37,568 nucleotides of DNA from a virus. The stretch is from the IMG/VR virus record IMGVR_UViG_3300037042_006459, positions 1 to 37,568 of that record; one strand, written 5' to 3'. This document shows positions 2,680 to 27,868 of this stretch, in pieces (position 1 is the first letter of the stretch; every line of letters starts with the position of its first letter). A program made the position numbers and the translations under genes. Under the pieces are notes generated by a model that saw nothing but the letters and a program-made list of their open reading frames with translations, ran no database searches and was not told where the DNA came from.

Positions 2680-2688
2680 TTAATTATT

Positions 2689-2704
2689 TATAATAAATAT
2701 CCCC
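2689..2704 (-). promoter_or_regulatory. Leader element shared with another homing endonuclease gene
   Basis: On the minus strand this reads GGGGATATTTATTATA, 9 nt before the start of the endonuclease at 2679. The identical 16 bases occur at 27870-27885, just before the GIY-YIG gene at 27868, although the two proteins are not related. It contains an ATATTTAT box like other candidate promoters here. It may be a promoter or mobility-associated boundary; function not shown. Confidence 0.35.
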
Positions 2705-2724
2705 ATGTGAACCAAAGGAGGACT

Positions 2725-3153: not shown

Positions 3154-3155
3154 AA

Positions 3156-3341
3156 TTAAAATATTTTACTTTCTTCTGGTTGTGGGGTTTGAATACAAGT
3201 AGGGGTTGGTTTTATTTGAGGTGTGTCTTCAACTATATCTAATTTATCTTTTATTTCATCCCATTGTTTAGGAGTAATGTTATAAGAATTAGCCGCTGTA
3301 GAAAAACCTTTTAACCAAATAACAAAATCTCTACTTGTCAT
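3156..3341 (-). CDS. Small conserved phage protein (MTSRDFVIWLKGF type)
   Basis: The 61-residue protein begins MTSRDFVIWLKGFSTAANSYNITPKQW. This helical module recurs at the N-terminus of short hypothetical proteins in phages of many hosts (from memory of the family). The C-terminal third is a Pro/Thr-rich tail. Its start ATG shares one base with the stop of the glycosyltransferase (3341), indicating translational coupling. No function is known. Confidence 0.75.
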   Translation of the reverse strand: MTSRDFVIWLKGFSTAANSYNITPKQWDEIKDKLDIVEDTPQIKPTPTCIQTPQPEESKIF

Positions 3342-4675
3342 TAATCTAATTTTTTAAGTTTAGGCAAACTAATTTTAGGTGCTTCAGTAACTGAACCTAA
3401 TTTTTTTAATGCTGGTAATTTAAGCTCAACTTGTTTAGGTACTCTAGTTTCAAAGATATTATTTAATATCTCAGCCATTTTATCAAATGAGTAATTTGTT
3501 TTAGCAAAATGAGCTTGACGTTTAGCTTTTTCTAAATACTTATCATAATCATTATAAACTGATTTATAAGCATCAGCAACTTCACCATCATTAGGAGTGA
3601 ACCAACTTGACTCAGCTAATATCATATTTTTAGCTTGAGCTGACTTATGAACTGGAGTTAAAGTACCATTCACTAAAATATTATATTCTGGATGTAAGAA
3701 ATCAATATGTCCACTCCAGTTACTAGCAATAATAGGTTTTTTAGATAAACTAAATTCAAGTAATGGTCTTCCAAATCCTTCACCTTTAGTTAATGACACC
3801 ATTGCTTTTATTTTATCATGGTTATATAAGTCATTTATATCCTTATCATCTAAATCACCATGTAACAAATAAATGTTTGGTAAATCACCTTTAACAGTAT
3901 TTTTAATAGCATCAATCTTTTTAAGTACTTCATCTCTATCCATTATAGAGTTAGTTACTTGAGCTGTTTTTAAAATAAGTGCTGGTTTAATTCCTTTTTT
4001 ATTCTTAAATGTTTCTAAGAATGATTTAATCATATAACCAACATTTTTTCTATCTTCACCTATATCACCTTGCAACCAGTGGCCTACAAATAAGAAACAA
4101 AAACTTTCTTCAATTTCATCTAAAGCTAAAACTAAATCTGTTTCTTCTAACTCATCATTATTAATAGCAAAATATTTATTTAAATCAGCTCCCTCAAATA
4201 ATACATCAACTGGTTTTTCTAATTTAATAACACCTACTAATTGTTGACTGTTTTTATCTTTCTTCTCAAAAACAGATTGTTCAAATACTTGTTTAGCATG
4301 ATTTGATGATACTAAAGTTAAATCCATTCTATTAATACCTTCAATCCATGTTGGATCACATACTGTTGTTTCAATACCTGCTGTGATACCAATATTACAT
4401 TTACCAATTGGTTGAAACTCATTTGGTACTGTAATTTGAATCCAAACATCAGGTTGTTTAGGTAATTGAGGTTGGCGCCAAATTAAATCTAATAACTGTT
4501 TGTCTTCAGTTTTATTAGGATCTAAAGCATTCCAAGCTGTGTTACCCCAACGTTGAGAAATAACTTTAACATCATATTTGTCATATTTCAAAAGTGCTTT
4601 AACTATGTCTCTAGATCTAGCACCATACCCTGACATTGTTTCAAGAGGGCAACTTATAACTACTAATGGTTTCAT
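3341..4675 (-). CDS. Family 4 (GT-B) glycosyltransferase
   Basis: A 444-residue protein. It has an N-terminal GT-B domain starting PLVVISCPLETMSGYGARSR and a C-terminal donor-binding domain with the EX7E-type motif near residues 300-312 (TKGEGFGRPLLEFSLSKKPII). It should add a sugar from an activated nucleotide donor to a glycan. An unusual tail near 415-444 holds two related Lys/Leu/Pro segments (LPALKKLG and LPKLKKLD), possibly a membrane or partner contact. It sits 6 nt downstream of a second GT4 gene. The substrate is unknown. Confidence 0.85.
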   Translation of the reverse strand: MKPLVVISCPLETMSGYGARSRDIVKALLKYDKYDVKVISQRWGNTAWNALDPNKTEDKQLLDLIWRQPQLPKQPDVWIQITVPNEFQPIGKCNIGITAGIETTVCDPTWIEGINRMDLTLVSSNHAKQVFEQSVFEKKDKNSQQLVGVIKLEKPVDVLFEGADLNKYFAINNDELEETDLVLALDEIEESFCFLFVGHWLQGDIGEDRKNVGYMIKSFLETFKNKKGIKPALILKTAQVTNSIMDRDEVLKKIDAIKNTVKGDLPNIYLLHGDLDDKDINDLYNHDKIKAMVSLTKGEGFGRPLLEFSLSKKPIIASNWSGHIDFLHPEYNILVNGTLTPVHKSAQAKNMILAESSWFTPNDGEVADAYKSVYNDYDKYLEKAKRQAHFAKTNYSFDKMAEILNNIFETRVPKQVELKLPALKKLGSVTEAPKISLPKLKKLD

Positions 4676-4681
4676 AACTTA

Positions 4682-6112
4682 TCAATAAACTAATTTGTGA
4701 CGAATATGTTTTCTTTTAAGTGGTTCAGTTTTAATTAACTCAAATTTATGTCTTGGTTTCCAGTTAGCCAAAACTTCATTAATATGCTTTATAACATTTC
4801 TACTCATGTTTTCAGCTGACATCATTGATTCATCTGATGTTACCCACTCACGAGCTAATTTTCCTCTACGTTTACGTTCTTCATCTCCCATTTCGTACAT
4901 CTTCATAATAGCATCAGCTGCATCTCTAAAGTCAGCTCTGTCATCATAGATATAAGGTGTTGGAACAGAACCTTGAATACTTATATTACTTGGAAATACT
5001 GGTATAGTCCAATCACCACACTGTTTGTATTTACCGAAATGATTAGAACAAAAATCAGCATCAAAATCAATCCATTTGCCATTTTCATCTACAAAACGCA
5101 TTTGGTCTTGCATTCCACCTGTTACATTACCAATAATTGGTTTACCACACATCATTGCTTCAGTGAGTGATAACCCCCATCCTTCATTTGATGTTAATAA
5201 AATACAAGCATCAGAAATATTATAAACTAAATTAAGATCTGAAGTTGGTATTCTTACATCTGAAAAATATATTTGTGAGCATTGTTCCTCAGTAAATAAC
5301 ATATCTTTTACAGCATATAAATCTGTACCATGTTCATCAACAGTTTGAGTATGTAATACTAAAGCACATTTATTAGCTTTTTCTTTAGGTAATTTATCTA
5401 AAAATACCTTAAACGCAGCCATAGTATCTGGTATTTGTTTACGTCTAATATTTCTAGAGTTAAACATTAAAACAAAATCATATTGTTTATCACCAAATAA
5501 TTTTTTCTTAACTTCATCTAGTTTAGAGGTATCTTCAATTGGGAAAAAATGTTTTTCATTAATACCATGTGGTACATAACTTAACACTTTATTTTTAGCT
5601 TTATCACCTAATACTATTTTATTTATATTAAGTGTTTGTTTTGATATAGCCATTAACCCATCACATGACTCATAATATGGTTCATTATATAATGGAGCTG
5701 GATAATCATCCCAAATGTTAAGGTAAATAATAGGTATTCTTCTCCTAATTTCATTTTCAATTTGAAATAACCAAATCCAATATCTTGGATCTGTAAACAT
5801 CATTAAAGCATCTGGTTTTTCAAAATCTAACATTTGTCTAATGTACTGAGCATCCCCATATCCACTTATTGGATATAGAATAATATTAGCATCATCAATA
5901 CCAGCATGTTTATTAGTATCAGCATTTAAATCAAAACGCTTACCTTGGTCTGGATGGTTAATAGCACCTCCAATGTTAACCCAATTGTAGTGATGTGCTG
6001 TACCTAGTACAATTTCTCTAGCCATTGTTGATATACCAGATGTCATTCTGATATCATCACACAACAATAAGATTTTTTTCCTTTGCGCTTGTGGAACGTA
6101 ACTTTCTTTCAT
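4682..6112 (-). CDS. Family 4 (GT-B) glycosyltransferase
   Basis: A 476-residue GT-B enzyme. The N-terminal Rossmann half contains KILLLCDDIRMTSGIST, and the C-terminal half contains the nucleotide-sugar EX7E motif SNEGWGLSLTEAMMCGKPII near residues 308-327. A Lys/Arg-rich C-terminus (KRKHIRHKLVY) could contact membranes. It is one of three glycosyltransferases in module I and probably acts sequentially with its neighbour at 3341-4675. Length is normal for GT4. Donor and acceptor are not identifiable. Confidence 0.85.
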   Translation of the reverse strand: MKESYVPQAQRKKILLLCDDIRMTSGISTMAREIVLGTAHHYNWVNIGGAINHPDQGKRFDLNADTNKHAGIDDANIILYPISGYGDAQYIRQMLDFEKPDALMMFTDPRYWIWLFQIENEIRRRIPIIYLNIWDDYPAPLYNEPYYESCDGLMAISKQTLNINKIVLGDKAKNKVLSYVPHGINEKHFFPIEDTSKLDEVKKKLFGDKQYDFVLMFNSRNIRRKQIPDTMAAFKVFLDKLPKEKANKCALVLHTQTVDEHGTDLYAVKDMLFTEEQCSQIYFSDVRIPTSDLNLVYNISDACILLTSNEGWGLSLTEAMMCGKPIIGNVTGGMQDQMRFVDENGKWIDFDADFCSNHFGKYKQCGDWTIPVFPSNISIQGSVPTPYIYDDRADFRDAADAIMKMYEMGDEERKRRGKLAREWVTSDESMMSAENMSRNVIKHINEVLANWKPRHKFELIKTEPLKRKHIRHKLVY

Positions 6113-6364: not shown

Positions 6365-7306
6365 TTACAAAGCGACATTTTTATCACATAATTCTTTATT
6401 AGAATTAAATGGGCAATAAGTACAACTATCTTTACTTACTATTTTAGAATATTCTTTAATTACATGTTTACCATCATTATCAAAACATTCATTTAAAAAC
6501 ATACTAAATTTCTCAGCTGCTTGTTTACGTTTAATTTTACCACTAGCTGGTCTAAATGAGGTAATGTAAGGTATAGCAAACGCATCATTGTCCCATATCT
6601 TTCTTTTCAATATAAAAAACTCAACTTCAATTTTATCAACATCAATATTATATTGTTTAGCAAAATATTCTTTATAAAGCAATATTTGAGCTAACTTAAT
6701 ATCATCTTTTTTATCTTTATCTCTCCATCCTGATCTAGATGTTTTAATATCATAGATATAAACTTTATCTAAATCCTTATCATATAAAACAAAGTCAATA
6801 TATCCTTTTAGAAATACATTTTTAGATAAACCAACCATCAAAGGCATTTCAATACCTAATAATACTGTGTTACGAGTGGTAAAAAATTGACCACGATGTT
6901 TTTTAAACCACTCAAGTATATTAACTCCATCCTCATAAAACTCTCTCATCTCATCTGGATTAGAGAAATGTTGTTTAGATGCTTCAAATTGTTCTTTATA
7001 AACTGCTCTAAAACGTTCATTAAACATTCCTACTATATCTTCTCTATCAGCGGCCGCACCACTTTGCTCATACATTACCTTAAGATAATGCTGCATTGTT
7101 TCATGAATAGCGGTTCCAAATATAGTATGAATTGAGGCTGAATATGGAGCTAAATTCTTAACATAGGCTAAATACCATTGATGTGGGCAACGTCTGTAAA
7201 CACTATATTGACTATAAGATACAGTATTTTGATACCTATAATCAACTTCTTTAAGTTGATGTGTTTTTATTTTAAGTTCAATCTCTGTTAATTTACTTTT
7301 TGCCAT
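6365..7306 (-). CDS. PD-(D/E)XK nuclease of Cas4/RecB type with probable Fe-S cluster
   Basis: A 313-residue protein with the ordered Cas4/AddB-like motifs: Cys40 (RRCPHQW), His68 (GTAIHET), Glu153, Asp171 (GYIDFV), Asp186-Ile-Lys188 (YDIKTS), the QILLYKEY motif near 207-214, and three C-terminal cysteines at 295, 298 and 307. Cys40 plus the last three would coordinate a 4Fe-4S cluster. These enzymes are metal-dependent DNA exonucleases or helicase-associated nucleases. No cas genes or CRISPR array are present, so a role in phage recombination or DNA end processing is more likely. Its start overlaps the GIY-YIG gene end by 14 nt. Confidence 0.82.
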   Translation of the reverse strand: MAKSKLTEIELKIKTHQLKEVDYRYQNTVSYSQYSVYRRCPHQWYLAYVKNLAPYSASIHTIFGTAIHETMQHYLKVMYEQSGAAADREDIVGMFNERFRAVYKEQFEASKQHFSNPDEMREFYEDGVNILEWFKKHRGQFFTTRNTVLLGIEMPLMVGLSKNVFLKGYIDFVLYDKDLDKVYIYDIKTSRSGWRDKDKKDDIKLAQILLYKEYFAKQYNIDVDKIEVEFFILKRKIWDNDAFAIPYITSFRPASGKIKRKQAAEKFSMFLNECFDNDGKHVIKEYSKIVSKDSCTYCPFNSNKELCDKNVAL

Positions 7307-8021
7307 TTTTATATTTCCATTTAAAACCTATTGCTGTTTTGTATTTTCCTTTACAACAAAGTGATATACTTACTCTAGTAGAATTGTATTTTTCAGAATT
7401 AAAATATAAAGTAGCTTCTTTAATACTGCTCCATTCTTTTATAAAATTATCCTGTAAGTCATATTGTAAAATAGGAATGTATCTTTTACTACCATCTTTT
7501 TTAATTCCTTTTAAATTCCAAGTAATTTTTCTTCCTTTATTAGCTTGACTTATTTTTTGTTTTGTTAGTTCAGAACATGATTTTCCTTTATGTATTTTAC
7601 TTTTTTTATTAAAAGTTGATAATGAATCTTTTTTACCTAATCGACTCTGTCGAATTTTTTCTCTTGATTCAGGGGTATGTTTAGATTTTTTCATTTTTTC
7701 TATACTTTCTAAAGTATGTACTCTATTAGTCATTCCTCCTATTATTCCACACTCAGCTATATTAGTCAATATATATCCTTTATTTAATAAATCTAAAGAT
7801 ACTTCTTTTTCTTTTAATAAAGATTGTTCTTTAGTTAACCCATCAAATAATATTTTAGATTCAAATACTCCCCTATTTTTATTAACTATATTCCACCAAT
7901 ATTGATTTCTACCACGTTTATTATTTCTACGTTGAGGTCTACCTTCTCCAACATAAAAAGGTTCATTTGTGTCAGGTCTTATGTGAATATAAACTATAAA
8001 ATTATTATTCTTTACCTTCAT
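7293..8021 (-). CDS. GIY-YIG homing endonuclease with NUMOD repeats
   Basis: A 242-residue basic protein. The N-terminal region (VYIHIRPDTNEPFYVGEGRP, about 10-29) is a divergent GIY-YIG nuclease core. Residues 100-175 contain Lys-rich NUMOD3-type repeats (SREKIRQSRLGKK, TKQKISQANKGRK). The C-terminus (ILQYDLQDNFIKEWSSIKEA, ending AIGFKWKY) is a NUMOD1-like DNA-binding domain. It is a free-standing mobile gene whose last 14 nt overlap the Cas4-like gene. It differs from the other two GIY-YIG genes here in its nuclease core. Confidence 0.85.
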   Translation of the reverse strand: MKVKNNNFIVYIHIRPDTNEPFYVGEGRPQRRNNKRGRNQYWWNIVNKNRGVFESKILFDGLTKEQSLLKEKEVSLDLLNKGYILTNIAECGIIGGMTNRVHTLESIEKMKKSKHTPESREKIRQSRLGKKDSLSTFNKKSKIHKGKSCSELTKQKISQANKGRKITWNLKGIKKDGSKRYIPILQYDLQDNFIKEWSSIKEATLYFNSEKYNSTRVSISLCCKGKYKTAIGFKWKYKNGKK

Positions 8022-13154: not shown

Positions 13155-13577
13155 CTAAAGTCTTCCAGCACCCTTATAACTTCTGTTATAAGGATAACTA
13201 TTCAGATCACTTATGATCACTCCTTCTCTTCTATTTGAAGCATGAACAAATTTATTATTACCAATATATATTCCACAATGCCATCCTGATGGTGATAATT
13301 TGCTGTTAAAAAATACAATATCACCTATTTCTAATCCTGCTTTTAATATTCGTTTAGTTTGATTCCATTGTCTCCAAGCTACATTTTCTAATTGTTCATT
13401 ATAAACTTCTTTATATAAACGTTTAGTAAATTGTGAACAATCAATTCCTGTTTTAGAATTACCTCCTAAACGATAAGGAGCACCTAACCATTCATTAACA
13501 AATGAATCTAATGTTTTTGTTTGTCCATAACTTAAAGTAGACAAACTTAAAAATAATACTAATAATATCTTTTTCAT
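13155..13577 (-). CDS. Exported NlpC/P60 cell-wall peptidase
   Basis: A 140-residue protein with a Sec signal peptide (MKKILLVLFLSLSTLSYGQ, cleavage near 18/19) and a compact NlpC/P60 domain. It has catalytic Cys47 (GIDCSQF), His100 (SGWHCGIYIGN) and a third polar residue at His112 (FVHAS). These enzymes cut D-Glu to diamino-acid bonds in peptidoglycan stem peptides. The signal peptide means it could reach the periplasm without a holin. It is followed on the transcript by thyX-block genes and preceded by tiny membrane proteins, so it is the likely endolysin. Confidence 0.88.
   Translation of the reverse strand: MKKILLVLFLSLSTLSYGQTKTLDSFVNEWLGAPYRLGGNSKTGIDCSQFTKRLYKEVYNEQLENVAWRQWNQTKRILKAGLEIGDIVFFNSKLSPSGWHCGIYIGNNKFVHASNRREGVIISDLNSYPYNRSYKGAGRL
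13172..13193 (-). repeat. Perfect inverted repeat in the 3' end of the NlpC gene
   Basis: Two 9-base arms (CCTTATAAC and GTTATAAGG) are separated by a 4-base loop inside the last codons of the peptidase gene. No T-tract follows on the minus strand, so it is not a typical terminator. It could stabilise the mRNA 3' end or be coincidental. Confidence 0.4.
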
Positions 13578-14955: not shown

Positions 14956-16389
14956 CTAATTTGAGGAATGAGACAGGTTCACATCACCAAGTATACAATA
15001 TTTGATATTTTGAATAACATCACTTGTGACTACATTGATAGTGAAGAATGTAACTGGATTGGTTGTAGCGAAATTAGTTCTAGTTATTAAATCATAGTTA
15101 GTAGCTGTAAACCATAATACTTTATTTATTAATCTATATCCACTATTATGAGTAGCAATTAAATAAGCATCACCTAAATCAAGTATACCATTTTCATTAA
15201 CATCAGCTGCCTTCCATTGTTTAGTACCTGTCATTACTAGACCTACAGCTGTTACAGGTGGAGTACTTTCATTTTGTACCTCACCCCATACTAAATTAAA
15301 ATCAGCTGATGTCACACCTTGCATTGTTAATGATGGTACTAATTTATATGTTGAGTTTTGGTTTGGTAATGTAAAAGTATAAGTACCGTTTGTAGCTACT
15401 GTCTTATAGTCTACAAGTTGATCAACGCCATTCACTACTCTATAAAGTGTAAGTAATGGTCTTGAGCTTAATCCTGCTGGTATGGTAACTGTACCTGATA
15501 ATAGATTGGTTATTGCAACTGTATTAGTAGTATTAGCAGTGTAGAAATCAGTAAATGTAGCATCAGCTGGGTTAGACCAAGTACCAAATTCAACTATATA
15601 AGCACAACTAAAATTATTAGGCAAATCATTCCAACAACTACCTCCTCCCCATTTTGTTACAGCATAATCTTCATTACCAGAATTATTAGGTTCACCTCCA
15701 CACCAATTATTATATTGACCTGCTATATTACCTGTCAGTTGTCCATTAGCTGTTTTAATTAAAGTACCTGCTTCAGGTCCAGCATCTACTCTCCAATATC
15801 CTTCTGTTACTTCATCACTTAAAGCAATCCAAATATTACTTTGTGGTACGTTTGAAAATATAAAATTTTCTTCATTTGATGAAGTAACTGTCACTAAATA
15901 TCCTGTTTGTCCTTTAAATGTTTGTTGAATGGCTAATGATCTAGCTGTTGTATACGTTTGACCTGTTGATACAGGTAAATAAAAGTGACCATTAACAGCA
16001 TTATAATAATAACCAGCTGGATTAACTGTAGTTGATATTGATATTTGAACATTACCTAAAGTAGAACCAGTATTTACTTTTAATGAAGCTAAAGCATTAT
16101 TTACATTGGCTTGTGTTCCTGTAAAACTTAAACGTGTTTGATTCACCCATGAATTATAACCTGTAGCAAATGACAACCCAGTAGTTGTAGTTAAACTGAA
16201 TGTAGTTCCAGCTGGTGGGTTAACAAATCCAATTGATGTTAGTAATACTTGTGAGCCAAATCCACTAATTACAAATCCACTAGCATCTTGTCCACTTAAA
16301 CTAACTTGATAAGTTCTACCTGGTGGAGCAGTTATAGACTGTCCCATTACTATAAATGGAAATAATAATATGATAAGTAATAACCTCAT
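14956..16389 (-). CDS. Secreted C-type lectin with dockerin-like C-terminal module
   Basis: A 477-residue protein with a signal peptide (MRLLLIILLFPFIVMGQ) and a beta-rich N-terminal region (about 20-125). A C-type lectin domain follows (about 134-268) with the calcium/sugar EPN motif at 233-235 (mannose-type) and WND at 253-255. A beta module (about 295-355) and a dockerin-like segment end it, with a calcium-loop pattern DVNENGILDLGD (396-407) and GDVN (468-471). The last 170 residues resemble residues about 195-380 of the T9SS protein at 20140-22029 but stop before a cohesin-like or sorting domain. It overlaps the upstream barrel gene by 4 nt. EPN suggests binding to mannose/GlcNAc-like glycans, by family rule. 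Confidence 0.82.
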   Translation of the reverse strand: MRLLLIILLFPFIVMGQSITAPPGRTYQVSLSGQDASGFVISGFGSQVLLTSIGFVNPPAGTTFSLTTTTGLSFATGYNSWVNQTRLSFTGTQANVNNALASLKVNTGSTLGNVQISISTTVNPAGYYYNAVNGHFYLPVSTGQTYTTARSLAIQQTFKGQTGYLVTVTSSNEENFIFSNVPQSNIWIALSDEVTEGYWRVDAGPEAGTLIKTANGQLTGNIAGQYNNWCGGEPNNSGNEDYAVTKWGGGSCWNDLPNNFSCAYIVEFGTWSNPADATFTDFYTANTTNTVAITNLLSGTVTIPAGLSSRPLLTLYRVVNGVDQLVDYKTVATNGTYTFTLPNQNSTYKLVPSLTMQGVTSADFNLVWGEVQNESTPPVTAVGLVMTGTKQWKAADVNENGILDLGDAYLIATHNSGYRLINKVLWFTATNYDLITRTNFATTNPVTFFTINVVTSDVIQNIKYCILGDVNLSHSSN

Positions 16390-17807
16390 AGATTAATCTT
16401 ACTACCAATTAGGAAGAATGATAAGATAGGAAAATCAGGGTTGGTAGACAAATTTGCTTTATAATTCATATTAAATTTAAAGCGTCTTGTTAGTTGATAA
16501 TCAAACCCACTACCTATAAATGCACTGAATGTTCTATCTGTTGTTGTTATTTTCTCTACTGTTGAATATAATAATGGAGTAGATATAATATATAACTCAG
16601 GAGATATAGTTAAACGTTTACTTGCTTTAAATGGTTTAGTATAAAACGCTGTTAATGATGGAGATATAAATGTGTTTTTCTGTTCACCATTTATTTTAGT
16701 CATAGCTATACTAGTATTAAAACCAGTCACACCCCATTTACCAGCATTTAATATTCCACTATAACCAACAAACCCAATTATATTACCGTATGAATAAACA
16801 CCTGTTAAATTAATATTATGTACCCATTTTAACTTACCGTTTTTACTAAAGTTAATTTTAGTGTATTTACCTGATAAAGCAAATTGTTTAAAATTAAACC
16901 ATATCATTGATGTTAATCCCCAACTTGACATTCCAGTCATTGATGACTGATTCATACTTAAATTAAGTATTGGGGTAAATGACTTATCTAGATTTTGAGC
17001 TGTTGTAAAGTCAGATGATACTATCAGAGGGTTAGTTGTTCCACCTTTGCCTCCATTTTTACCACCTTTACCTCCTCCCCCTCCTCCACCACCATTGTCG
17101 TCTTTAGAATCATTTTGATTTTGTTGATCTACATTCATTGTAGTTGTAGCTGCTACTTCTTCTCCTTTTTGTTCAGTTTTGGTCTCAGTTTTAGTAGTTC
17201 CTTGACTATTCCCTTCATTACCGCCACTATTATTGCCCCCGCCAGCACTACCATTACCCCCACTATTTTGATTGTTTCCTCCACCGCTTGAAGGACTATT
17301 TGAATTTTGGTTGCTATTGTTGTTTTCATCTTTTTTAGTTTTATTATCTCCATCTTTGTTGTTTTTAGTTGCTGCGTCACTTCCCCCAGCAGATGAAGCA
17401 TTTGATGTTGAAGCTGAGGTAGCAACACCTGTAATAGTGCTTGAGGCAGCTGATTGAGCTTGACTCATAATACTACCTACTACACTTTGAACTGTGTTAC
17501 TTACAATTTGAGCTGTGATTTGATTTTGTGTTACTTGTCCTTGTTGTTGACCACAAGGAGCTACTCTACGATAATCAGCATAAACTTGATTAACCCAAGC
17601 AGCAAATGCACCTGATGTTACATCCGCTGATGTAAACTGTCTTGATTGACTTAAGAAGAATATTGTTGTACCAGTAGCAGGTACTGAAAAGTAAGTTACC
17701 TGACCAGTGCAGGGATCTACAAACTGATGAGTAAGTGTCTGTGCCTCAGCTTTCCAACTGAGACATATAATAAGCAATATACTTAAGTATGTTTTTAACT
17801 TTCTCAA
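16386..17807 (-). CDS. Outer-membrane beta-barrel-like protein with long low-complexity spacer
   Basis: A 473-residue protein. It uses a TTG start at 17807: two in-frame stops lie immediately upstream and the signal peptide (MRKLKTYLSILLIICLSWKAEAQ) follows. Residues 25-110 are a small soluble region, about 120-265 a Ser/Asn/Gly/Lys low-complexity spacer with poly-Gly, and about 270-473 a strand-alternating region ending in an aromatic-poor beta strand (FFLIGSKINL), as in outer-membrane barrels. Its end (FSAFIGSGFDYQLTRRFKF, then LSTNPDF) resembles the end of the 259-residue protein at 17927-18706, so they are probably paralogues. The specific barrel family is not known. Confidence 0.7.
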   Translation of the reverse strand: MRKLKTYLSILLIICLSWKAEAQTLTHQFVDPCTGQVTYFSVPATGTTIFFLSQSRQFTSADVTSGAFAAWVNQVYADYRRVAPCGQQQGQVTQNQITAQIVSNTVQSVVGSIMSQAQSAASSTITGVATSASTSNASSAGGSDAATKNNKDGDNKTKKDENNNSNQNSNSPSSGGGNNQNSGGNGSAGGGNNSGGNEGNSQGTTKTETKTEQKGEEVAATTTMNVDQQNQNDSKDDNGGGGGGGGKGGKNGGKGGTTNPLIVSSDFTTAQNLDKSFTPILNLSMNQSSMTGMSSWGLTSMIWFNFKQFALSGKYTKINFSKNGKLKWVHNINLTGVYSYGNIIGFVGYSGILNAGKWGVTGFNTSIAMTKINGEQKNTFISPSLTAFYTKPFKASKRLTISPELYIISTPLLYSTVEKITTTDRTFSAFIGSGFDYQLTRRFKFNMNYKANLSTNPDFPILSFFLIGSKINL

Positions 17808-17926: not shown

Positions 17927-18706
17927 TTAAAAATTAAATTTATTTCCTATTGAAATGTTATTCATTAATCCAAATTTTGGATTTGTGTTAATATTACCTC
18001 TATAAGCAACTAATAATATAAATCGTTTACTAATCTTATATCCAAATGATGTACCTACTAATGCATTAAATGTTGGATCAGTTGTTTGTGTTCCTTTACC
18101 TTTATCCCAGTACATATGAGAATAACTTAATAATAAATCAGGTGTTATTGTAAATTTACCTGCACTATACATTCTGTTAATAAACAATATCATTGAAGGT
18201 GCTACTATATGCATTGGTGGTAATGAATCTGATTCTATAACTTGATTAAATGATGATGATAAGTTAATACCGAATCCTTTATTCCATTTACCTTTATATA
18301 ATTTAGCATAAGTAAGTGTTGTTGTTCTACTCTTAGCTAATTCAACATAAGATAAAAATAAATTGTTATTACCTTTAGATACAAACCCAGAAATACCTAA
18401 TTGAGAACCATCTGTTGATACAAAGCCATTTCCACCATATGAGTAAATTCCATTAATAGATGATTTACCCCACCCCAAAGACACTGCTTGTAGCCACCCA
18501 CCTACATAAGTTGGTTTTTGTAAGAATACAAAATCAGATGACGTTAAGAAGGCATTTGTTTTAACAACTGAACCTTTAGGTCCTGGTGGGGGTGGAGGTG
18601 GAGCTGGTTGTAGGTTATTTACCTGCATTTGCATTTCTCTATTTTTTGCATCTTGTGCAAATAATATTGTTGGGAGTAATAATAAAATTAATAATATTTT
18701 TTTCAT
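17927..18706 (-). CDS. Outer-membrane beta-barrel-like protein
   Basis: A 259-residue protein with a signal peptide (MKKILLILLLLPTILFAQ), a short Pro-rich linker (PAPPPPPPGPKG, about 34-45), then about 210 residues of alternating hydrophobic/polar strands ending in Phe (SIGNKFNF), the usual outer-membrane barrel C-terminus. The terminal region (FNALVGTSFGYKISKRF, then NINTNPKFG) parallels the barrel at 16386-17807. Its ATG overlaps the CsgG-like stop by one base, so pore and barrel are co-translated. A role in export or surface anchoring of neighbouring proteins is inferred. Confidence 0.72.
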   Translation of the reverse strand: MKKILLILLLLPTILFAQDAKNREMQMQVNNLQPAPPPPPPGPKGSVVKTNAFLTSSDFVFLQKPTYVGGWLQAVSLGWGKSSINGIYSYGGNGFVSTDGSQLGISGFVSKGNNNLFLSYVELAKSRTTTLTYAKLYKGKWNKGFGINLSSSFNQVIESDSLPPMHIVAPSMILFINRMYSAGKFTITPDLLLSYSHMYWDKGKGTQTTDPTFNALVGTSFGYKISKRFILLVAYRGNINTNPKFGLMNNISIGNKFNF

Positions 18707-19461
18707 TATTGCATTTTAAATATACCTTTCTTATGCATACGGAGTAATATCTTACCAGCAGCTATTTCCAATGCTTTTTTAGTGGATGTACCTATAGTTG
18801 ATTGGTTGAATTTAACTTCACTAAAGTTATCATCATTCATTAATGTTAATTCTCTAACTGTTTTAGCTTCACCTAAACCTGAACCAGTGAAATATTCACC
18901 TGTTTCAGCATTAACAAATTTAACTTGTAAACCTAAACGAGTTACAACGGTGTTTTTAACTCCGTCTTTCATGTTTACTGTTTCGTCTTCTGAAACTGAG
19001 AAATCATAGCATTCGATATAAGCAAAGTAGTGGGCTAAACGTATTTTACCTCTACCATCTAATTTATCTTCAGTAATTCCAGATTGTGATGCTTGGAATT
19101 GCTTTACCATTCTGTTTTTAATTTCAGTTTTATCTTCAGTAAAGGTAAAGTGATTAGTTTCTTCTAAAAATTCAACCACAATATTAGTAACACCTAATCC
19201 AACACGTTTATCCTTTAATTCAGGATACATTGCATATACCTCTTCACTAATACCTAAACTTAAAATTTGAATAGGAATCTTAGGACCATCATACTCAAGT
19301 AAACTATCAATATTAGATTTCTTCTCAAATGACGCTTTATAATCTTCAGTTACTGTTTTACCTACTACTTGAGCTGTAGCTTTTTGGGCTAACAAAAACA
19401 TTAGTACAACATATGTTATTATACCTATAACAGCTTTAACCATATTTGATTTTTTTTCCAT
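18706..19461 (-). CDS. csgG: CsgG-family outer-membrane secretion pore protein
   Basis: A 251-residue protein. After an N-terminal hydrophobic export segment (about 9-31) the core matches the CsgG pattern. There is an early VTNIVVEFLEETNHFTFTED helix-strand (about 90-110), a region AHYFAYIECYDFSVSED, the strand pair RLGLQVKFVNAETGEYFTGSG (about 175-196) and a C-terminal ALEIAAGKILLRM helix. CsgG forms a nonameric outer-membrane channel that exports curli subunits in other bacteria. No lipobox cysteine was seen near the signal segment, unlike E. coli CsgG. The substrate here may be the neighbouring surface proteins (inference). Confidence 0.75.
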   Translation of the reverse strand: MEKKSNMVKAVIGIITYVVLMFLLAQKATAQVVGKTVTEDYKASFEKKSNIDSLLEYDGPKIPIQILSLGISEEVYAMYPELKDKRVGLGVTNIVVEFLEETNHFTFTEDKTEIKNRMVKQFQASQSGITEDKLDGRGKIRLAHYFAYIECYDFSVSEDETVNMKDGVKNTVVTRLGLQVKFVNAETGEYFTGSGLGEAKTVRELTLMNDDNFSEVKFNQSTIGTSTKKALEIAAGKILLRMHKKGIFKMQ

Positions 19462-19508: not shown

Positions 19509-19772
19509 TTACTCTTCAGTTGGAGTTTCTTCTGATTTATTACCTTTTTTAGCATTGATAAATTTGTCAATAGATCCAATACCAAATGAACCTAAGACAA
19601 TCACCATGAAGCCATCAAAGATAAACTCATTAATAACAAATTCTTTACCAGCAAATCCAGTTACAATGTCAACGCCTAAAGCAATTACCATCATAAAGAA
19701 TGCTATAAATCCAATAACTGATTTTTCATTGATTGTGTTGTTGTCATCAAACAACGTTTTAAACCATCCCAT
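19509..19772 (-). CDS. Two-helix membrane protein, holin-like candidate
   Basis: An 87-residue protein with N-terminal MGWFKTLFDDNNTINEKSV, two hydrophobic helices (about 19-39 and 50-70, including FDGFMVIVLGSFGIGSIDKF) and a charged C-terminal tail (KKGNKSEETPTEE). The size, two spans and charged tail fit small phage holins or membrane accessory proteins. It sits in the export island rather than next to the NlpC enzyme. The holin role is inferred from architecture only. Confidence 0.55.
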   Translation of the reverse strand: MGWFKTLFDDNNTINEKSVIGFIAFFMMVIALGVDIVTGFAGKEFVINEFIFDGFMVIVLGSFGIGSIDKFINAKKGNKSEETPTEE

Positions 19773-19798: not shown

Positions 19799-20128
19799 TT
19801 ACCATTTTGGTTCTTCTGAAAACGGCTTTGGTTTTGGAGCAGGAGCTGGTTGAGCAGCTGGTTTTTCAACTACACGCTCAATTACTTTTGTTCCACCACC
19901 AGCAGCTTGTTGTTGCTGTTGAGTGTTGTTAATAACAATAGTTGGTTGAACAGGAGCAGCTTGTTCTGTTTTAGCTTCTTCTTTGTCCTCACTATGGTCA
20001 CCAAAAAATGTAGTGGTAACCCAAGTTCCAGCGCCTAATACAGCTGTGCTAAGTGTTCCAATAATTGTTTTCTTAAGACCTGACCATGTTCCGTCATTGT
20101 GGTCTTGTACATTTGTTTCTTCTGACAT
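19799..20128 (-). CDS. Membrane-anchored protein with Pro/Ala-rich tail
   Basis: A 109-residue protein: polar N-terminus, a hydrophobic helix (LKKTIIGTLSTAVLGAGTWV, about 18-37), an acidic/Gln-rich stretch (INNTQQQQQAAGGG) and a Pro/Ala/Lys-rich tail (PAAQPAPAPKPKPF). Such tails usually span the periplasm or mediate flexible partner contacts. It is co-transcribed with the holin-like gene and the T9SS protein. No family was recognised. Confidence 0.6.
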   Translation of the reverse strand: MSEETNVQDHNDGTWSGLKKTIIGTLSTAVLGAGTWVTTTFFGDHSEDKEEAKTEQAAPVQPTIVINNTQQQQQAAGGGTKVIERVVEKPAAQPAPAPKPKPFSEEPKW

Positions 20129-20139
20129 ACTATTTAATT

Positions 20140-22029
20140 TTAAATTTTAACAAATTGTTTTGCTAAACGCTTTTGATTTTCATTATCTAACACTAATAAA
20201 TAACGCCCATTAGCAGCTGATGTTAAATCAACTTGTCTAACTACTGTTGTTACATATTGATCACTTACTAATCTACCTATATCTTTTATTTTGCGACCTT
20301 GGATATCGTAAACTGTAGCTAATGAAGTCATATTTTCTTTAGGGAATACTACTACTAATTCAAAGAAACCACTAGTTGGATTTGGACGAATTGTAGCTGT
20401 AATTTCACCTTCTGGAGTTGGTATTAATGCTTGTCTTGTAGCTAATACTACATAATCAGACTGTAAATTAATATTGAAATGATCTCCATTTTTATCAGCG
20501 GCATCCATTAAACTTCTAACATATACATTAGTCATAATGTCGTTAGTACCAATTGGAGAGAACTTTAGTCTAAATGGGGTAACATTACCAACTAATGAAC
20601 CTAATATTTGGTTATTCATTCCACCAAAACGAATAATACCATTAGCATCATCATGTGTTAAATATTGTAACCATGGTCCTTGAATATTTGAAATAATTTC
20701 TTCAAATTTTACTTTAGTTGGATCATATCTCATTTCAAACTGTAAGCCATCATTCTTTAAACCATTTGTGTTAATATTAAAGTTAGCATACATTGCTTGA
20801 CCAGTTGGAGCAGTTACATTTGGAATATTAATATCTAAATTACCAATATAATTTGGTCTAGCTACTAAAGCACCACCCGCATCATATACTGGAGATGAAT
20901 GTGTTCTATCAACATCACCTAAGATAAAGTATTTAATATCTACACCTGTTAAGTTAACTGTACCTACACTATCAAAGATGTGAGTTACACCATTAATATG
21001 TCCAGACCAATCGTTCCATTGGTTTACACCTAATGCTAATGAATCATAAGTATTTTTAGTGAATACATTAATTAACTTAGTAGTATCAATTGGTTTTAAA
21101 CCTGACACTGAGGCATAAATTGAATAGGCATCACCACCATCTAATGCTCCTGTTTTATTAACATCAGCAATCAAATATGCTAACCCATTTCTTAAGTATG
21201 TTCTTGGAAACACTTGGTTAACATCTGTGTTAGTATATTCATCATAAGTTTTAACAGCGTCAGCTATTGTTACAGCTTGATCTCTAATAGTAGATAATGG
21301 AGATGGGAATCTAACTTCTAACTTATACCTTGTGTTTTCATCAATATTATCTAAGGTATAAGTACCGTCTGTATTTACAGTTACTGAGTCAATAAATGTG
21401 TTGTTATTAGCTTGATAACACCAAATAACAGGCTTTAATGTCATTTGAGGACCTAACCATACTTTACCTGATAATGTTAAGTTACCTAATAATTTAATAG
21501 CTAATCTTTGGTTTGTAAGTTGAGCTACATTATCACCAATTGTAGCACCATTAACATCAAACATACGAGCCCAGTTCACAGTAATTGTATCTGATACGTA
21601 GTTTGGAGCTACAGCGTTAATCTTATACTTGTTATGGATAATATAACCATTAGATCCAATAGTAGATCCACTTGACAATACTAAATAGTTACGTCCTACA
21701 GTCCAATCTGTATTTGAAGTGTAAGTATAAGTACCATTTGAGTAGGTATTATACTTGTAGTTATCCCAAGTTTTATAACTTACTGATGGAGTCATTCCAT
21801 TAACAGCAGCATCAACTGTAGTTGAGATATAAGTTAATAATGTTTTTTTATACTGCCAGTCAACCTGGAAAGTACGAACATCGGAAGTACCTGGTCTGTA
21901 ATACCAAGCAACATCTAATGTATCACCTCTTCTTACAGTAGCAAGAGTCTGGAAGTGTCCAATTTGAGGTGTTTGAGAATAAGAGGCGAAACTAATTAAA
22001 AGCGAAATTGCTAATAATAATTTTTTCAT
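20140..22029 (-). CDS. T9SS-sorted surface protein with cohesin-like and dockerin-like modules
   Basis: A 629-residue protein. Signal peptide 1-19 (ends FASYSQ), an N-terminal beta domain (about 24-185), a small beta module (about 186-245), and dockerin-like calcium-loop motifs (DVNKTGALDGGD, about 289-300, and GDVDRTHSS, 371-379). A cohesin/CBM-like beta domain follows (about 395-530). The C-terminus (about 546-629) has the type A T9SS sorting pattern: RPNPTSGFFEL, YDIQGRKI, DLTSAANGRYLLVL and a final KQFVKI. T9SS exists only in Bacteroidota and removes this tail while anchoring cargo at the surface. The neighbour gene at 14956 shares the dockerin-like half. Family knowledge supports export; binding partners are inferred. 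Confidence 0.85.
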   Translation of the reverse strand: MKKLLLAISLLISFASYSQTPQIGHFQTLATVRRGDTLDVAWYYRPGTSDVRTFQVDWQYKKTLLTYISTTVDAAVNGMTPSVSYKTWDNYKYNTYSNGTYTYTSNTDWTVGRNYLVLSSGSTIGSNGYIIHNKYKINAVAPNYVSDTITVNWARMFDVNGATIGDNVAQLTNQRLAIKLLGNLTLSGKVWLGPQMTLKPVIWCYQANNNTFIDSVTVNTDGTYTLDNIDENTRYKLEVRFPSPLSTIRDQAVTIADAVKTYDEYTNTDVNQVFPRTYLRNGLAYLIADVNKTGALDGGDAYSIYASVSGLKPIDTTKLINVFTKNTYDSLALGVNQWNDWSGHINGVTHIFDSVGTVNLTGVDIKYFILGDVDRTHSSPVYDAGGALVARPNYIGNLDINIPNVTAPTGQAMYANFNINTNGLKNDGLQFEMRYDPTKVKFEEIISNIQGPWLQYLTHDDANGIIRFGGMNNQILGSLVGNVTPFRLKFSPIGTNDIMTNVYVRSLMDAADKNGDHFNINLQSDYVVLATRQALIPTPEGEITATIRPNPTSGFFELVVVFPKENMTSLATVYDIQGRKIKDIGRLVSDQYVTTVVRQVDLTSAANGRYLLVLDNENQKRLAKQFVKI

Positions 22030-22502
22030 AGTAGTTTATCGATTAGGTTAATAATGGTTTTTTTAAGTGCAGAACGTGCTGACGCTTGATTAAAACCACC
22101 ACCTTCATCAATTATCATAGTTGAGGTAGATATTTCAGAACTCTTACCTGTTGCGATATATTCTTTAGGCTTTTTATCATTTGTATAAAGAATACCTTTT
22201 ATTCTAATTATTGTTTCATTTTCTGTTTTATGAAATACACTTACACCTGTAGCTGTTTGTTGTATATCAAAATATATAATTTCTAAATCTAATCTAAAAG
22301 CTGAGCTATCATTATTTAGATCATGTCCTTTATCTAGAATTGCTTCTTCAGCAATATTTTTGATACCAAATGCTAAATTTTTATTACCTGTTAAAGGACC
22401 CATTTTAACTTTGTTGGTGACAGTACCAACATATACTGTAGTGGGTTGTGCACTTAGTATTGTATATAGTGATATCAATATACTAGTTAAAAACAGTCTC
22501 AT
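22026..22502 (-). CDS. Secreted CsgG-associated-like protein
   Basis: A 158-residue protein with a signal peptide (MRLFLTSILISLYTILSAQ). The mature region has a beta-alpha pattern (RLDLEIIYFDIQQTATGVSV, then ETIIRIKGIL) and a conserved-looking end (STSTMIIDEGGGFNQASARS, then ALKKTIINLIDKLL). The C-terminal helix after a Ser/Ala turn resembles the end of CsgG-like proteins, and it could be a soluble partner or divergent paralogue. It overlaps the T9SS protein start by 4 nt and is the first gene of the export island. Precise family uncertain. Confidence 0.55.
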   Translation of the reverse strand: MRLFLTSILISLYTILSAQPTTVYVGTVTNKVKMGPLTGNKNLAFGIKNIAEEAILDKGHDLNNDSSAFRLDLEIIYFDIQQTATGVSVFHKTENETIIRIKGILYTNDKKPKEYIATGKSSEISTSTMIIDEGGGFNQASARSALKKTIINLIDKLL

Positions 22503-23177: not shown

Positions 23178-23191
23178 CTTTTAAAAATTAG

Positions 23192-23553
23192 TGGAGGAGA
23201 CGGGAATCGAACCCGTGTATCCATAAGGAACAATAACACCAGTGTATCACATGCTTAGATCTGCAAGCTGATCAGTAATTGGGGACGTTGATTTTGGTTA
23301 ACGTCGACTCCACCACCTAATTTTTTAGCGGAAATTAGGAAAACCAGAGTGCTGTTCTGTTGCAAGGCTATCAGCTGCCCCTTGCGGATTAGGCTGCTAC
23401 AGCGTAATCGGCACCTACGAACGCCATTAAGTCGTCGAAGGTCATTGTTGACATTTCGTCATTTATTGGTTGAAAATTTGTTTAAAGACGACATATCCAA
23501 ACGTCTGCATGTAGTGGTACCTTCACATTACGGAGCAATACCTGGACTCCCCC
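23192..23553 (-). ncRNA. ssrA: Transfer-messenger RNA (tmRNA)
   Basis: The 362-nt RNA has a 7-bp acceptor stem formed by GGGGGAG (5') and CTCCTCC (3'), including the G3-U70 pair that alanyl-tRNA synthetase requires, and a T arm (ACGGG, TTCGATT, CCCGT). The hallmark CTAAGCATGT near the 3' part pairs with ACATGC near the 5' part (helix 2). Hairpin GACGTT/AACGTC lies between them. The tag frame is at 23389-23424. CCA is not encoded (ACTA follows). It rescues stalled ribosomes by adding a degradation tag. It is one-piece, on its own between a terminator on each side. Confidence 0.93.
23389..23424 (-). other. tmRNA tag reading frame (AFVGADYAVAA, then stop)
   Basis: The probable resume codon is GCG at 23424-23422, preceded by TTAATG, which matches the TA spacing upstream of resume codons. 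The frame reads AFVGADYAVAA and ends TAA at 23389. The end YAVAA matches the ALAA/AVAA-type protease signal of bacterial tags. A later resume at GGT would give GADYAVAA, closer in length to Bacteroidota tags; the exact resume codon is inferred. Confidence 0.75.
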
Positions 23554-24585: not shown

Positions 24586-26223
24586 TTAAAATCCTAATCC
24601 AGGTCCAAGATCATCATCTTTTTTCTTCTCAGACGGTTCTTCATGAATAACACTTTCAGTTGTTAATATAGTACCTGCTACAGCTGCTGCATTTTCAACT
24701 GCTAAACGAGTTACTTTAGTTGGATCTAAAATACCTTCATCTTCCATATTAACAAATGTTTCTGATTTTAAATCATAACCATACCAAGTACCTTTTAACT
24801 TACCTAACTCGTACATATACCAAGTTGGATTATTTAAACCAGCATTATCTAAAATTTGAATAAACGGTGAAGATAAGGCTGAATAAACAATTTTTTTACC
24901 GATATTAAAATCAACACTATCATCCATTGACTCGCTTATAGCTTCTCTAGCATATAATAAAGCTGAGCCCCCACCTGGTAATACACCTTCTTCAACAGCA
25001 GCACGAGTAGCAAATAAAGCGTCTTCAACTCTATCTTTATATTCTTTTAATTCAATTTCATTATTACCACCTACATTAATAATAGCTACACCACCAATTA
25101 ACTTACCTAAGCGTTCTTGTAATTTTTCTTTTTCAAACATTGATTGAGCCTTATCAATTTGAATTTTGATCTCCTCAGCTCTAGCTGTAATTGCTTCTTC
25201 AGTACCTTTACCATCAACAACAGTTGTTTTTTCTTTTTCAACTGTTACTGTTCTGGCTTTGCCTAAATAAGTTGATAATTGAGCTACATTTAATTTGTCA
25301 AGTTTTAATCCTTTTTCTTTACTAATAACTTGACCACCAGTGACAATAGCTAAATCTTCTAACAATAATGTTCTACGCTCACCAAAGTCAGGCGCTTTAA
25401 CAGCTACTACTTTAACAATACCTCTCATTTTATTAACAATGAGTGTTGCTAATGCTTCACCATCAATGTCTTCAGCTACAATCAATAATGATTTATTTTC
25501 ACTATTTACTTTTTGAAGTACATTTAATAACTCAGCAGCAGCTATAATTCTACCATCATAAATTAAAACATATGGGTCATCAAGTACAGCTTGCATTGTA
25601 CTGTTGTTAGTAACAAAGTAAGGTGATTTATAACCTCTATCAAACTGAATACCCTCAACTACCTCAAGTGTTGTTTCACCTGTTTTACTTTCTTCAATAG
25701 CTACTACTCCATCACGACCTACTTTTTCAAGCGCTGATGCTACTAAATTACCTGTAAATTCATCATTATTAGATGAAATTGTAGCTACTTGTTTTAGTTG
25801 TTCTTCTGATGAAATATCTTTACTGTTTTGTTTAAGCGCTTTAACTACTTGTTTAACAGCTTTATCAATACCTTTTTTAATCTCAACAGCATTGGCTCCA
25901 GCTCTAACTTTACTTAAGCCTTCTTTAACCATAGTGTTAGCCAAAAGAGTAGTAGTGGTAGTACCATCTCCAGCTGTGTTGGCTGAACGTATAGCAGCTT
26001 GTTTAACAATTTCAGCCCCAATGTTCTCAATCGGGTCTTTAAGTTTAATTGATTTTGCGACTGTAACTCCATCTTTAGTTGATTGAGGTAATTCATTTTC
26101 TTTTTCAATAATAACATTACGACCAAATGGGCCTAATGTTGTGACAACGGCTTTAGATAACTTATCTACTCCGTCAGCTAGTTTTTGTCTAGCATCTGTG
26201 TTATATACTATAATTTTACTCAT
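24586..26223 (-). CDS. groEL: Chaperonin GroEL (60 kDa)
   Basis: A 545-residue, full-length group I chaperonin. The nucleotide-binding motif GDGTTTTT (85-92, catalytic Asp86), the TTLGPFGRNV segment (28-37) and the late VLPGGGSALLYA nucleotide loop are intact. The equatorial, intermediate and apical domains all align in order. The usual flexible GGM-rich C-terminus is replaced by a charged tail ending DDDLGPGLGF. It should form the ring that folds phage or host proteins with GroES. It overlaps the groES stop by 8 nt and is followed 12 nt later by tRNA-Pro. Confidence 0.97.
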   Translation of the reverse strand: MSKIIVYNTDARQKLADGVDKLSKAVVTTLGPFGRNVIIEKENELPQSTKDGVTVAKSIKLKDPIENIGAEIVKQAAIRSANTAGDGTTTTTLLANTMVKEGLSKVRAGANAVEIKKGIDKAVKQVVKALKQNSKDISSEEQLKQVATISSNNDEFTGNLVASALEKVGRDGVVAIEESKTGETTLEVVEGIQFDRGYKSPYFVTNNSTMQAVLDDPYVLIYDGRIIAAAELLNVLQKVNSENKSLLIVAEDIDGEALATLIVNKMRGIVKVVAVKAPDFGERRTLLLEDLAIVTGGQVISKEKGLKLDKLNVAQLSTYLGKARTVTVEKEKTTVVDGKGTEEAITARAEEIKIQIDKAQSMFEKEKLQERLGKLIGGVAIINVGGNNEIELKEYKDRVEDALFATRAAVEEGVLPGGGSALLYAREAISESMDDSVDFNIGKKIVYSALSSPFIQILDNAGLNNPTWYMYELGKLKGTWYGYDLKSETFVNMEDEGILDPTKVTRLAVENAAAVAGTILTTESVIHEEPSEKKKDDDLGPGLGF

Positions 26224-26506
26224 AAATTGATAGAATTTCTGATTCTTTAGTTACAATATAATCTTCTCCATCTACAGTGATTTTAACTGATCCCATTTTA
26301 GGAATAAGTACTTTTTGGCCTGGTGTTAACTTAGATGGAACATCTTGTCCTGTATGCCAGTTAAAGGTATCGCTTGTAGCGATTACTTCTCCAATTTCTG
26401 GTTTTTCTTTTCCTAAATCTGGAATGACAATATTACCGTATGTTTGTTCTTCAAACTCAATAGGTTTGATAATAACATTACCATTAACGGGTGTTAATTT
26501 ACTCAT
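26216..26506 (-). CDS. groES: Co-chaperonin GroES
   Basis: A 96-residue protein, normal length for GroES. It starts LTPVNGNVIIKPIE and has the mobile loop EEQTYGNIVIPD (about 18-29) that contacts GroEL, then KEKPEIGEVIA, PGQKVLIPK and a final strand EDYIVTKESEILSIYE. It caps the GroEL ring in an ATP-dependent cycle. It is directly upstream of groEL with an 8-nt overlap, the arrangement of cellular groESL operons, but with the phage gene spacing. Confidence 0.95.
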   Translation of the reverse strand: MSKLTPVNGNVIIKPIEFEEQTYGNIVIPDLGKEKPEIGEVIATSDTFNWHTGQDVPSKLTPGQKVLIPKMGSVKITVDGEDYIVTKESEILSIYE

Positions 26507-26764: not shown

Positions 26765-27202
26765 TTATCCTTTAAGGATTTGTTTTTTGTTTATTTTAAT
26801 TTCAATTTTCCTTGGTGCTTTTTCAGCCGCGTAAGGAATATCAACAATTAAGAGACCTTTATCTAAAAATGCACTTAACTGAGTTAAGTTAAATTTAGAT
26901 GCTATCTTCCATGCTAAATCAAATGAACGTTTAGCAATACCTCTTTGTAGGTAAGATTTGATTTCTTCTGTTTCTGGTTTGTTATAAGAGATACGTAATG
27001 TTTCTCCATCTACTTGAATGTCTAGATCAGATTCAGATAAACCTACTACTGCTAGTTCAAAACGTAACCCGTTTTCTGTTTCTAAAATATCAACTGGATA
27101 GTTGATTTTACTTTCAAATGTGTTAAATGTGCTGTTTGCATCGAAAAAATTTTTCCAGACGATGTCGAATGGGTCAATACCCCAATGTGCAATTCTTGTC
27201 AT
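26765..27202 (-). CDS. hsp20: Small heat-shock protein Hsp20 (alpha-crystallin family)
   Basis: A 145-residue protein. After a WGIDPFDIVWKNFF N-terminus, the alpha-crystallin core runs from about 38 to 135 (NYPVDILETENGLRFELAVV, then DIQVDGETLRISYN) and includes the KRSFDLAW and LDKGLLIVDIP strands. The C-terminal IxI-like region is IKINKK. These ATP-independent holdases bind unfolding proteins. Hsp20 genes occur in other T4-like phages. It has a 90-nt leader with two hairpins. Confidence 0.92.
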   Translation of the reverse strand: MTRIAHWGIDPFDIVWKNFFDANSTFNTFESKINYPVDILETENGLRFELAVVGLSESDLDIQVDGETLRISYNKPETEEIKSYLQRGIAKRSFDLAWKIASKFNLTQLSAFLDKGLLIVDIPYAAEKAPRKIEIKINKKQILKG

Positions 27203-27292: not shown

Positions 27293-27868
27293 TCAAATTT
27301 TCCATTTCCATCCAAATCCATAACAAAATTTTCTTTTACCGTTACATACATCTCCAATAGATCCATTACTTATTCTTTTACCTAAACTTAAATTAGCTTC
27401 ACTTATTGAAGAATATTCAGTTATTTCACCTGTTTTTAAATTAATTTTAATTACTGGTTTTTGTTTAGATAAACTTATTTTGTCTCCATAGTTTATAGTA
27501 TGTTGAAATCTTTTTTGTTTATGTTCTTCAGTTTGTTTTTTTCCTTTCATAGCGATGCTTTTTCTTAATTTAGTTTCATCACTACATTTTCCTCTACCTT
27601 CTCCTAATCTTAAATTTAAACCATTTTCTCCTAAAACATTATAAAACATACCCCAATATAACTCTTTCTCATTTATTTGATCTAACGTACATTCTTCTAT
27701 AATTTCAAATATATGATTTTCTACACCATATTTTTTAAAAGATCTATTTAATTTAACTTGTTGTTTACATTCTGTTCCTCTATATTGTTTCCATCTTTTA
27801 GGAATATTAACAGACTGTCCTATATAAACTTTATTTACAGGAGATGTTATTTTATAGATACCTATCAT
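27293..27868 (-). CDS. GIY-YIG homing endonuclease
   Basis: A 191-residue protein with a standard core: GIYKITSPVNKVYIGQSVNI (3-22), then RWKQYRG, and an Asn-Glu-Lys-Glu helix (QINEKELYWG, catalytic Glu about 69). Residues 90-130 carry NUMOD3-like Lys-rich repeats and 135-190 a NUMOD1-like domain ending CYGFGWKWKI. It is inserted between the clamp gene and hsp20, and its leader overlaps the clamp stop codon. It belongs to the same subfamily as the gene at 28639-29340. Confidence 0.93.
   Translation of the reverse strand: MIGIYKITSPVNKVYIGQSVNIPKRWKQYRGTECKQQVKLNRSFKKYGVENHIFEIIEECTLDQINEKELYWGMFYNVLGENGLNLRLGEGRGKCSDETKLRKSIAMKGKKQTEEHKQKRFQHTINYGDKISLSKQKPVIKINLKTGEITEYSSISEANLSLGKRISNGSIGDVCNGKRKFCYGFGWKWKI

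Follow-up and report, generated by a model that had tools for sequence, protein, structure and literature searches.

The virus record IMGVR_UViG_3300037042_006459 encodes an exported, predicted calcium-dependent C-type lectin, which looks like the swappable tip of a conserved viral envelope gene set present in hundreds of aquatic phage contigs. The lectin gene ends a run of genes for exported proteins in the window (the whole stretch of 37,568 nucleotides analysed here), and its product shares a C-terminal module with a cohesin-like protein that carries a type IX secretion system (T9SS) sorting tail. As the leading explanation we propose that, towards the end of infection, the host cell displays the lectin on its surface, where it would bind glycans in a calcium-dependent manner; in our estimation this is about as likely as not, and the evidence on both sides is set out below.

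The lectin and its calcium site

The lectin gene (14956..16389; ATG start; all genes and features of the lectin and its neighbourhood described below lie on the minus strand) encodes 477 aa with four recognizable parts. A signal peptide (residues 1-16; 16342..16389), assigned from sequence and alignment and probably cleaved before QS, is followed by a beta-rich N-terminal domain (residues 18-125; 16015..16338) seen in the AlphaFold model and represented by a separate profile of its own, by the C-type lectin domain (residues about 121-271; 15577..16029), supported by Pfam, PDB profile search and structure comparison, and by a C-terminal module (residues 295-477; 14959..15507) consisting of a beta-sandwich, a dockerin-like DxNxNGxxxxxD stretch and a terminal GDVNLSHSS. 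An N-terminal signal sequence is present in every full-length homolog in the alignment, and the gene is under purifying selection, with dN/dS values mostly between 0.1 and 0.3. No family was assigned to the lectin in a PHROGs search, and a Pfam search of the lectin itself gave no match to the T9SS C-terminal sorting domain.

The domain matches Pfam Lectin_C (PF00059; E 4.8e-6, 27.7 bits against a cut-off of 22.6), and a profile of 23 lectin homologs retrieved langerin, DC-SIGN, mincle and mannose-binding protein from the PDB. An AlphaFold model based on 23 close homologs was poor (pLDDT 58) and was superseded by a model built from a 75-sequence alignment, whose mean pLDDT is 90.2. In this model residues about 121-271 superimpose on C-type lectin crystal structures with a best Z of 18.5 (rmsd 1.7 over 125 residues), and on MBP-C (1kza) with Z 17.1 (rmsd 1.3 over 114). 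The earlier note, made from the sequence alone, had described this reading frame as a C-type lectin bearing a signal peptide, which sequence, Pfam and model bear out, and had proposed structure prediction as a check; the predicted structure is indeed a C-type lectin fold. Its placement of EPN at residues 233-235 and WND at 253-255 is likewise correct.

The EPN motif (15685..15693; E233 and N235 as calcium ligands), E240 as the third ligand (15670..15672) and the WND motif (15625..15633; ligands N254 and D255) are invariant in 55 of 55 aligned lectin sequences. Judged from this conservation, the set of five ligands of calcium site 2 is complete. A specificity for mannose/GlcNAc would follow from EPN by likeness to characterised animal lectins; WND is a motif of the calcium site and not a code for sugar specificity. 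Langerin, DC-SIGN and mannose-binding protein share with the viral lectin the fold, the ligands of calcium site 2, EPN and WND. In contrast to these animal proteins, the viral lectin lacks the canonical disulfide cysteines and has the pair C230/C252 instead; we take the cysteine positions within EDC, VPC and VCEF of mannose-binding protein to correspond to Y, N and V in the lectin. Many non-animal members of the C-type lectin fold lack the canonical cysteines, so their absence bears on membership of the animal subgroup and not on the fold family. C230 and C252 lie beside EPN and WND; both are present in 20 lectin sequences, both are missing in 34 and only one of them is found in a single sequence, an all-or-none pattern which suggests that they form a lineage-specific disulfide in place of the canonical ones. 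On its own, the lectin would be a further case of a well-known fold family.

A run of genes for exported proteins

The lectin gene closes a one-strand gene run from 22502 to 14956. Six of the proteins encoded there have a signal peptide at the N-terminus, namely the lectin, the CsgG-family protein, the T9SS-tailed 629-aa protein, a small YajG-like protein and two whose C-termini are barrel-like. The YajG-like protein (158 aa; 22026..22502) shows a weak resemblance to Lipoprotein_16 in 6 of 22 relatives (best E 1.4e-5), and its profile comparison with CsgG gave a probability of 10.6. Behind the gene for the 629-aa protein follow those for a small membrane-anchored protein with a low-complexity tail, which is kept across the cassette (19799..20128), and for a small membrane protein of holin-like appearance without a family above cut-off (19509..19772).

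The exported CsgG-family protein (251 aa; 18706..19461) was assigned via a 38% identical Ignavibacteriales relative (L059), which matches Pfam CsgG (PF03783) with 28.6 bits against a cut-off of 20.8; the protein's own family gave no direct Pfam CsgG match. Its signal peptide ends in AQ and there is no lipobox cysteine. Next to it are encoded a 259-aa signal-peptide protein (17927..18706) and a 473-aa protein with a signal peptide, a low-complexity middle and a C-terminal beta-barrel predicted from sequence only (16386..17807); the C-terminal region of the former is similarly barrel-like. The gene for the 473-aa protein overlaps the start of the lectin gene by 4 bases, a translational overlap. 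The 473-aa protein had no match in Pfam or the PDB, and PDB searches with the CsgG-like and barrel profiles returned nothing significant. Curlin repeats (CsgA/CsgB), CsgE and CsgF were not matched among the scanned neighbour proteins. A signal-peptide NlpC/P60 peptidoglycan hydrolase (13155..13577; 79.7 bits), a candidate lysis or wall-opening enzyme, is encoded 1.4 kb downstream of the lectin gene. The sequence CTATATTTATA, considered as a promoter motif upstream of two cassette genes, was rejected as no commoner than chance, its count in the window being reached in 31 of 100 shuffles.

A C-terminal module shared with a cohesin-like neighbour

The 629-aa protein (20140..22029) consists of an N-terminal region, a dockerin-like module (residues 184-389), a cohesin-like region and a T9SS sorting tail (residues 549-625). 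By hhalign, this module and lectin residues 295-477 are homologous (probability 99.4, E 8.6e-22); a dockerin-type DxNxxG repeat occurs in each, as does a final GDVN/D...HSS motif. In the lectin, the C-terminus holds one clear F-hand (DxNxNGxxxxxD) and a truncated GDVN motif. Pfam Dockerin_1 was matched below threshold only, in two relatives, and the PDB dockerin match was weak (E 0.36); the name dockerin-like is therefore descriptive. The sorting tail matches Por_Secre_tail with 29.1 bits against a cut-off of 27 and is found in 18 of 18 relatives. The Pfam Cohesin profile is matched by 7 of these 18 relatives, and above cut-off (36.7 bits) by gp15 of Flavobacterium phage vB_FspM_immuto, and is not matched by the 629-aa protein of the window itself; a PDB search with the profile of this protein gave nothing significant.

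Distances among the lectin C-terminal modules correlate more closely with cohesin-protein distances (Mantel r 0.67) than with distances among the lectin cores to which the modules are joined (r 0.36), as would be expected if module and cohesin protein were partners, short of proof. We considered, and rejected, that the lectin core has been strongly shuffled as a domain: its r with the C-terminus was 0.11 in one set and 0.36 in a larger set with operon partners, so that we claim only modest shuffling. In L044-L046 and other loci, lectin, dockerin-like stretch and cohesin-like domain are fused in one polypeptide. In the L044 type, the T9SS tail is missing from both proteins of the pair. Cassettes without this tail have small lipoproteins encoded after the cohesin-like genes (L044 10286-10627, L045 11177-11898, L094 6771-7130), whose beta-rich regions resemble the sorting tail by eye only.

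Recurrence of the cassette and variation of its tip

The viral-contig search placed the lectin at 54 loci, and relatives of the lectin domain are encoded in 287 stretches of viral contigs; the CsgG-like neighbour matches at least 584 stretches. Distinct loci with the cassette number at least 84. Among 84 distinct CsgG-like loci, the barrel protein is present in 79, the cohesin/T9SS protein in 76, the YajG-like protein in 68 and the lectin in 37, and thus the block is conserved while its neighbours and its tip vary. In relatives the same C-terminal module carries PA14 (L052), a lectin together with Ig_7 (L110) or another, more distant lectin (L116), and other variable genes at the place of the tip encode a lipase or secreted nuclease. 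Since these relatives combine one module with other ligand-binding domains, their sequences suggest tip exchange as a way of matching different glycans. The lectin frame is broken and split into two ORFs in L042 (8001-9307) and L119; either the tip may be dispensable there, or these may be assembly errors. The earlier note had seen no nearby reverse transcriptase or template repeat, and no sign of a diversity-generating cassette came to light: reverse transcriptase (PF00078) is absent from 10 related phage records of 97-321 kb, which are possibly fragments, and from the scanned proteins of the 37.5-kb window.

Viral genome, host and origin of the cassette

The 37.5-kb record encodes a T4-type clamp loader, a family B DNA polymerase, GroEL/GroES, Hsp20, a tRNA run and a tmRNA. 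The full-length tmRNA gene (23189-23553, minus strand; Rfam RF00023, 66.3 bits against 47), with a tag ending in DYAVAA, lies beside eight tRNA genes, and the GroEL and GroES pair and the Hsp20 protein (24586-26506 and 26765-27202, both minus strand) are encoded near this tRNA block. Three homing-endonuclease-like genes (PHROG 314; 7293-8021, 27293-27868 and 28639-29340, minus strand) lie near the clamp-loader and polymerase genes. On either side of the region (676-6112 and 33749-36177, minus strand) lie several glycosyltransferase genes and one resembling UDP-glucose dehydrogenase, which suggests surface or capsule modification; two overlapping reading frames at 676-2143 may hold a frameshift.

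Ribosomal protein S21 is encoded in 8 of 12 related phage records, as it is in huge freshwater Bacteroidetes phages (PMC9723584), which makes a Bacteroidota host likely; the host is probably a Bacteroidota water bacterium. The cassette is no host gene set within 298 other Flavobacteriaceae genomes: the CsgG-like protein has no full-length relative there, with only two marginal 50-residue matches, and the lectin C-terminal module has none. On an Ignavibacteriales MAG contig (L059, 7986-15419), a CsgG-family lipoprotein, a second CsgG-like protein, an 825-aa protein and a barrel-like protein are encoded consecutively; the phage cassette may descend from a cellular gene row of this kind.

A putative surface display system and its alternatives

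Because the lectin shares its module with the cohesin/T9SS protein and is accompanied by genes for a CsgG-family protein and for predicted outer-membrane barrels, the surface of the infected cell, and not free release, would be its most likely location. The earlier note had proposed that an exported lectin decorates the host or the environment; the export signal stands, whereas stand-alone secretion does not, as the note overlooked the C-terminal module common to the protein with cohesin and T9SS tail. On the display reading, Sec would carry the lectin into the periplasm, and the CsgG-family protein (an outer-membrane channel, if CsgG-like in action) and/or the type IX system of the host would move the cassette proteins outward. 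The T9SS-tailed cohesin protein would be fixed on the cell surface and hold the lectin through the dockerin-like module, and the displayed lectin could bind glycans of cell surfaces or of the environment. Infected cells might thereby be kept close to new hosts or surfaces, or glycan receptors might be masked against competing phages. We count in favour of display the lectin fold and calcium site, the exported cassette at 84 loci, the shared module, the fusions in L044-L046, the split genes of immuto, the exchange of tips and the Mantel distances. Against it we count the dependence of the CsgG assignment on one 38% identical relative, the missing lipobox cysteine, the single clear F-hand with its truncated companion, the sub-threshold dockerin matches, the lack of a Cohesin match in the window's own protein and the tailless pairs of the L044 type. 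The more general proposal, namely that Bacteroidota phages own a surface-display system, built from an outer-membrane protein of the CsgG family and a cohesin scaffold sorted by T9SS, whose exchangeable dockerin-tagged glycan-binding tips (C-type lectin, PA14 and others) make the infected cell sticky before lysis, is more tentative, and we consider it possible and no better than that.

Three other readings deserve consideration. The lectin might be released to the medium or left on debris and mask receptor glycans, acting in superinfection exclusion or as a decoy more than as an adhesin. Its signal peptide without a sorting tail of its own would fit, as would several glycosyltransferase genes (e.g. 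3341-6112 and 33749-36177), which suggest that the phage also alters surface sugars; such genes are common in these phages, however, and the conserved C-terminal module and the partner protein suggest retention on the cell, so that we regard release as unlikely. A little less probable in our judgement is an outer-envelope lysis or egress module, in which the CsgG-like channel, the barrels and the small membrane proteins contribute to opening the outer membrane, with the lectin as an accessory. It would account for the holin-like gene within the cassette and for adjoining NlpC/P60 or GH19 endolysin genes, which follow directly after 14 of 100 lectin genes and lie within six genes of the cassette in 41 of 84 cases, and a lysis role has been proposed for the phage CsgGF of methylophage Melnitz (PMC9004378), but it leaves the exchangeable glycan-binding tips, the cohesin-like domain and the T9SS tail unexplained.

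The lectin and its companions might also be virion components, the lectin sitting on the particle or tail and aiding adsorption while the signal-like N-termini are processed or unused. Phage lectin domains usually sit on tails or capsids, and in some relatives tail genes, or a large fibre gene of S74 or collagen-like type, come after the cassette. However, a series of exported-type proteins, one of them of the CsgG family and another with a T9SS sorting tail, is ill-suited to particle assembly in the cytoplasm, and a structural PHROG match is absent; we consider a virion role improbable.

Comparison with known systems

The closest counterpart to the putative display cassette is found in immuto, a cultured phage isolated on Flavobacterium sp. 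LMO8. Its gp13-gp19 form one block that, like the window, encodes a lectin with a dockerin-like motif, a T9SS-tailed cohesin, a CsgG-like protein and small conserved proteins. The lectin (gp13, 'lectin C-type domain-containing protein') and the cohesin protein are already annotated as such. The CsgG-like proteins are 53% identical; in contrast, the lectin is 37% identical over just 29% of the query and lacks the large N-terminal domain. What corresponds to the dockerin-like and to the cohesin half of the 629-aa protein is encoded in immuto by two distinct genes, which adjoin those for the lectin and the CsgG relative.

Partial CsgG/CsgF operons are known from pelagimyophages, for which uptake of large molecules or aggregation by 'sibling capture' was speculated (PMC7029224). 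These and the Melnitz genes resemble the window at family level, in a phage-encoded exported CsgG-family protein within a conserved block; unlike the window, they are reported as CsgF/CsgG without lectin, cohesin or T9SS parts. The T4-like marine Bacteroidetes virus TARA_ERS488589_N000003 carries curli and surface adhesin genes, and its authors proposed that infected cells may attach near uninfected ones or new hosts (PMC7198788); in contrast to the cassette described here, that text mentions no lectin, cohesin or secretion tail. A survey of jumbo phages lists lectins as virion adhesins and does not mention curli, cohesin or T9SS parts (PMC7824862). The viral system resembles the cohesin-dockerin pairs of cellulosomes in that a dockerin-like repeat occurs together with a cohesin-like domain, either within one polypeptide or in separate proteins; it differs in that its second F-hand is degenerate or distant, enzyme cargo is absent and the pairing is putative. 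In the literature searched, outside which subscription papers and preprints lay, we found no mention of a phage lectin cassette with cohesin, dockerin and T9SS parts; phage CsgG genes are already known from pelagiphages, and this form of them appears to be undescribed there.

The pelagiphage reports raised a lasting question as to why phages encode genes for CsgG-type secretion. Here, a gene of this type is accompanied by an evident cargo, the predicted calcium-dependent lectin, by a plausible anchor, the cohesin with T9SS tail, and by swapped tips, and as a related set exists in a Flavobacterium isolate, phage-driven stickiness is directly testable. If the proposed display is true, phages would remodel the surface of their hosts by means of modular adhesins, which would bear on how cells aggregate and attach to particles in aquatic habitats.
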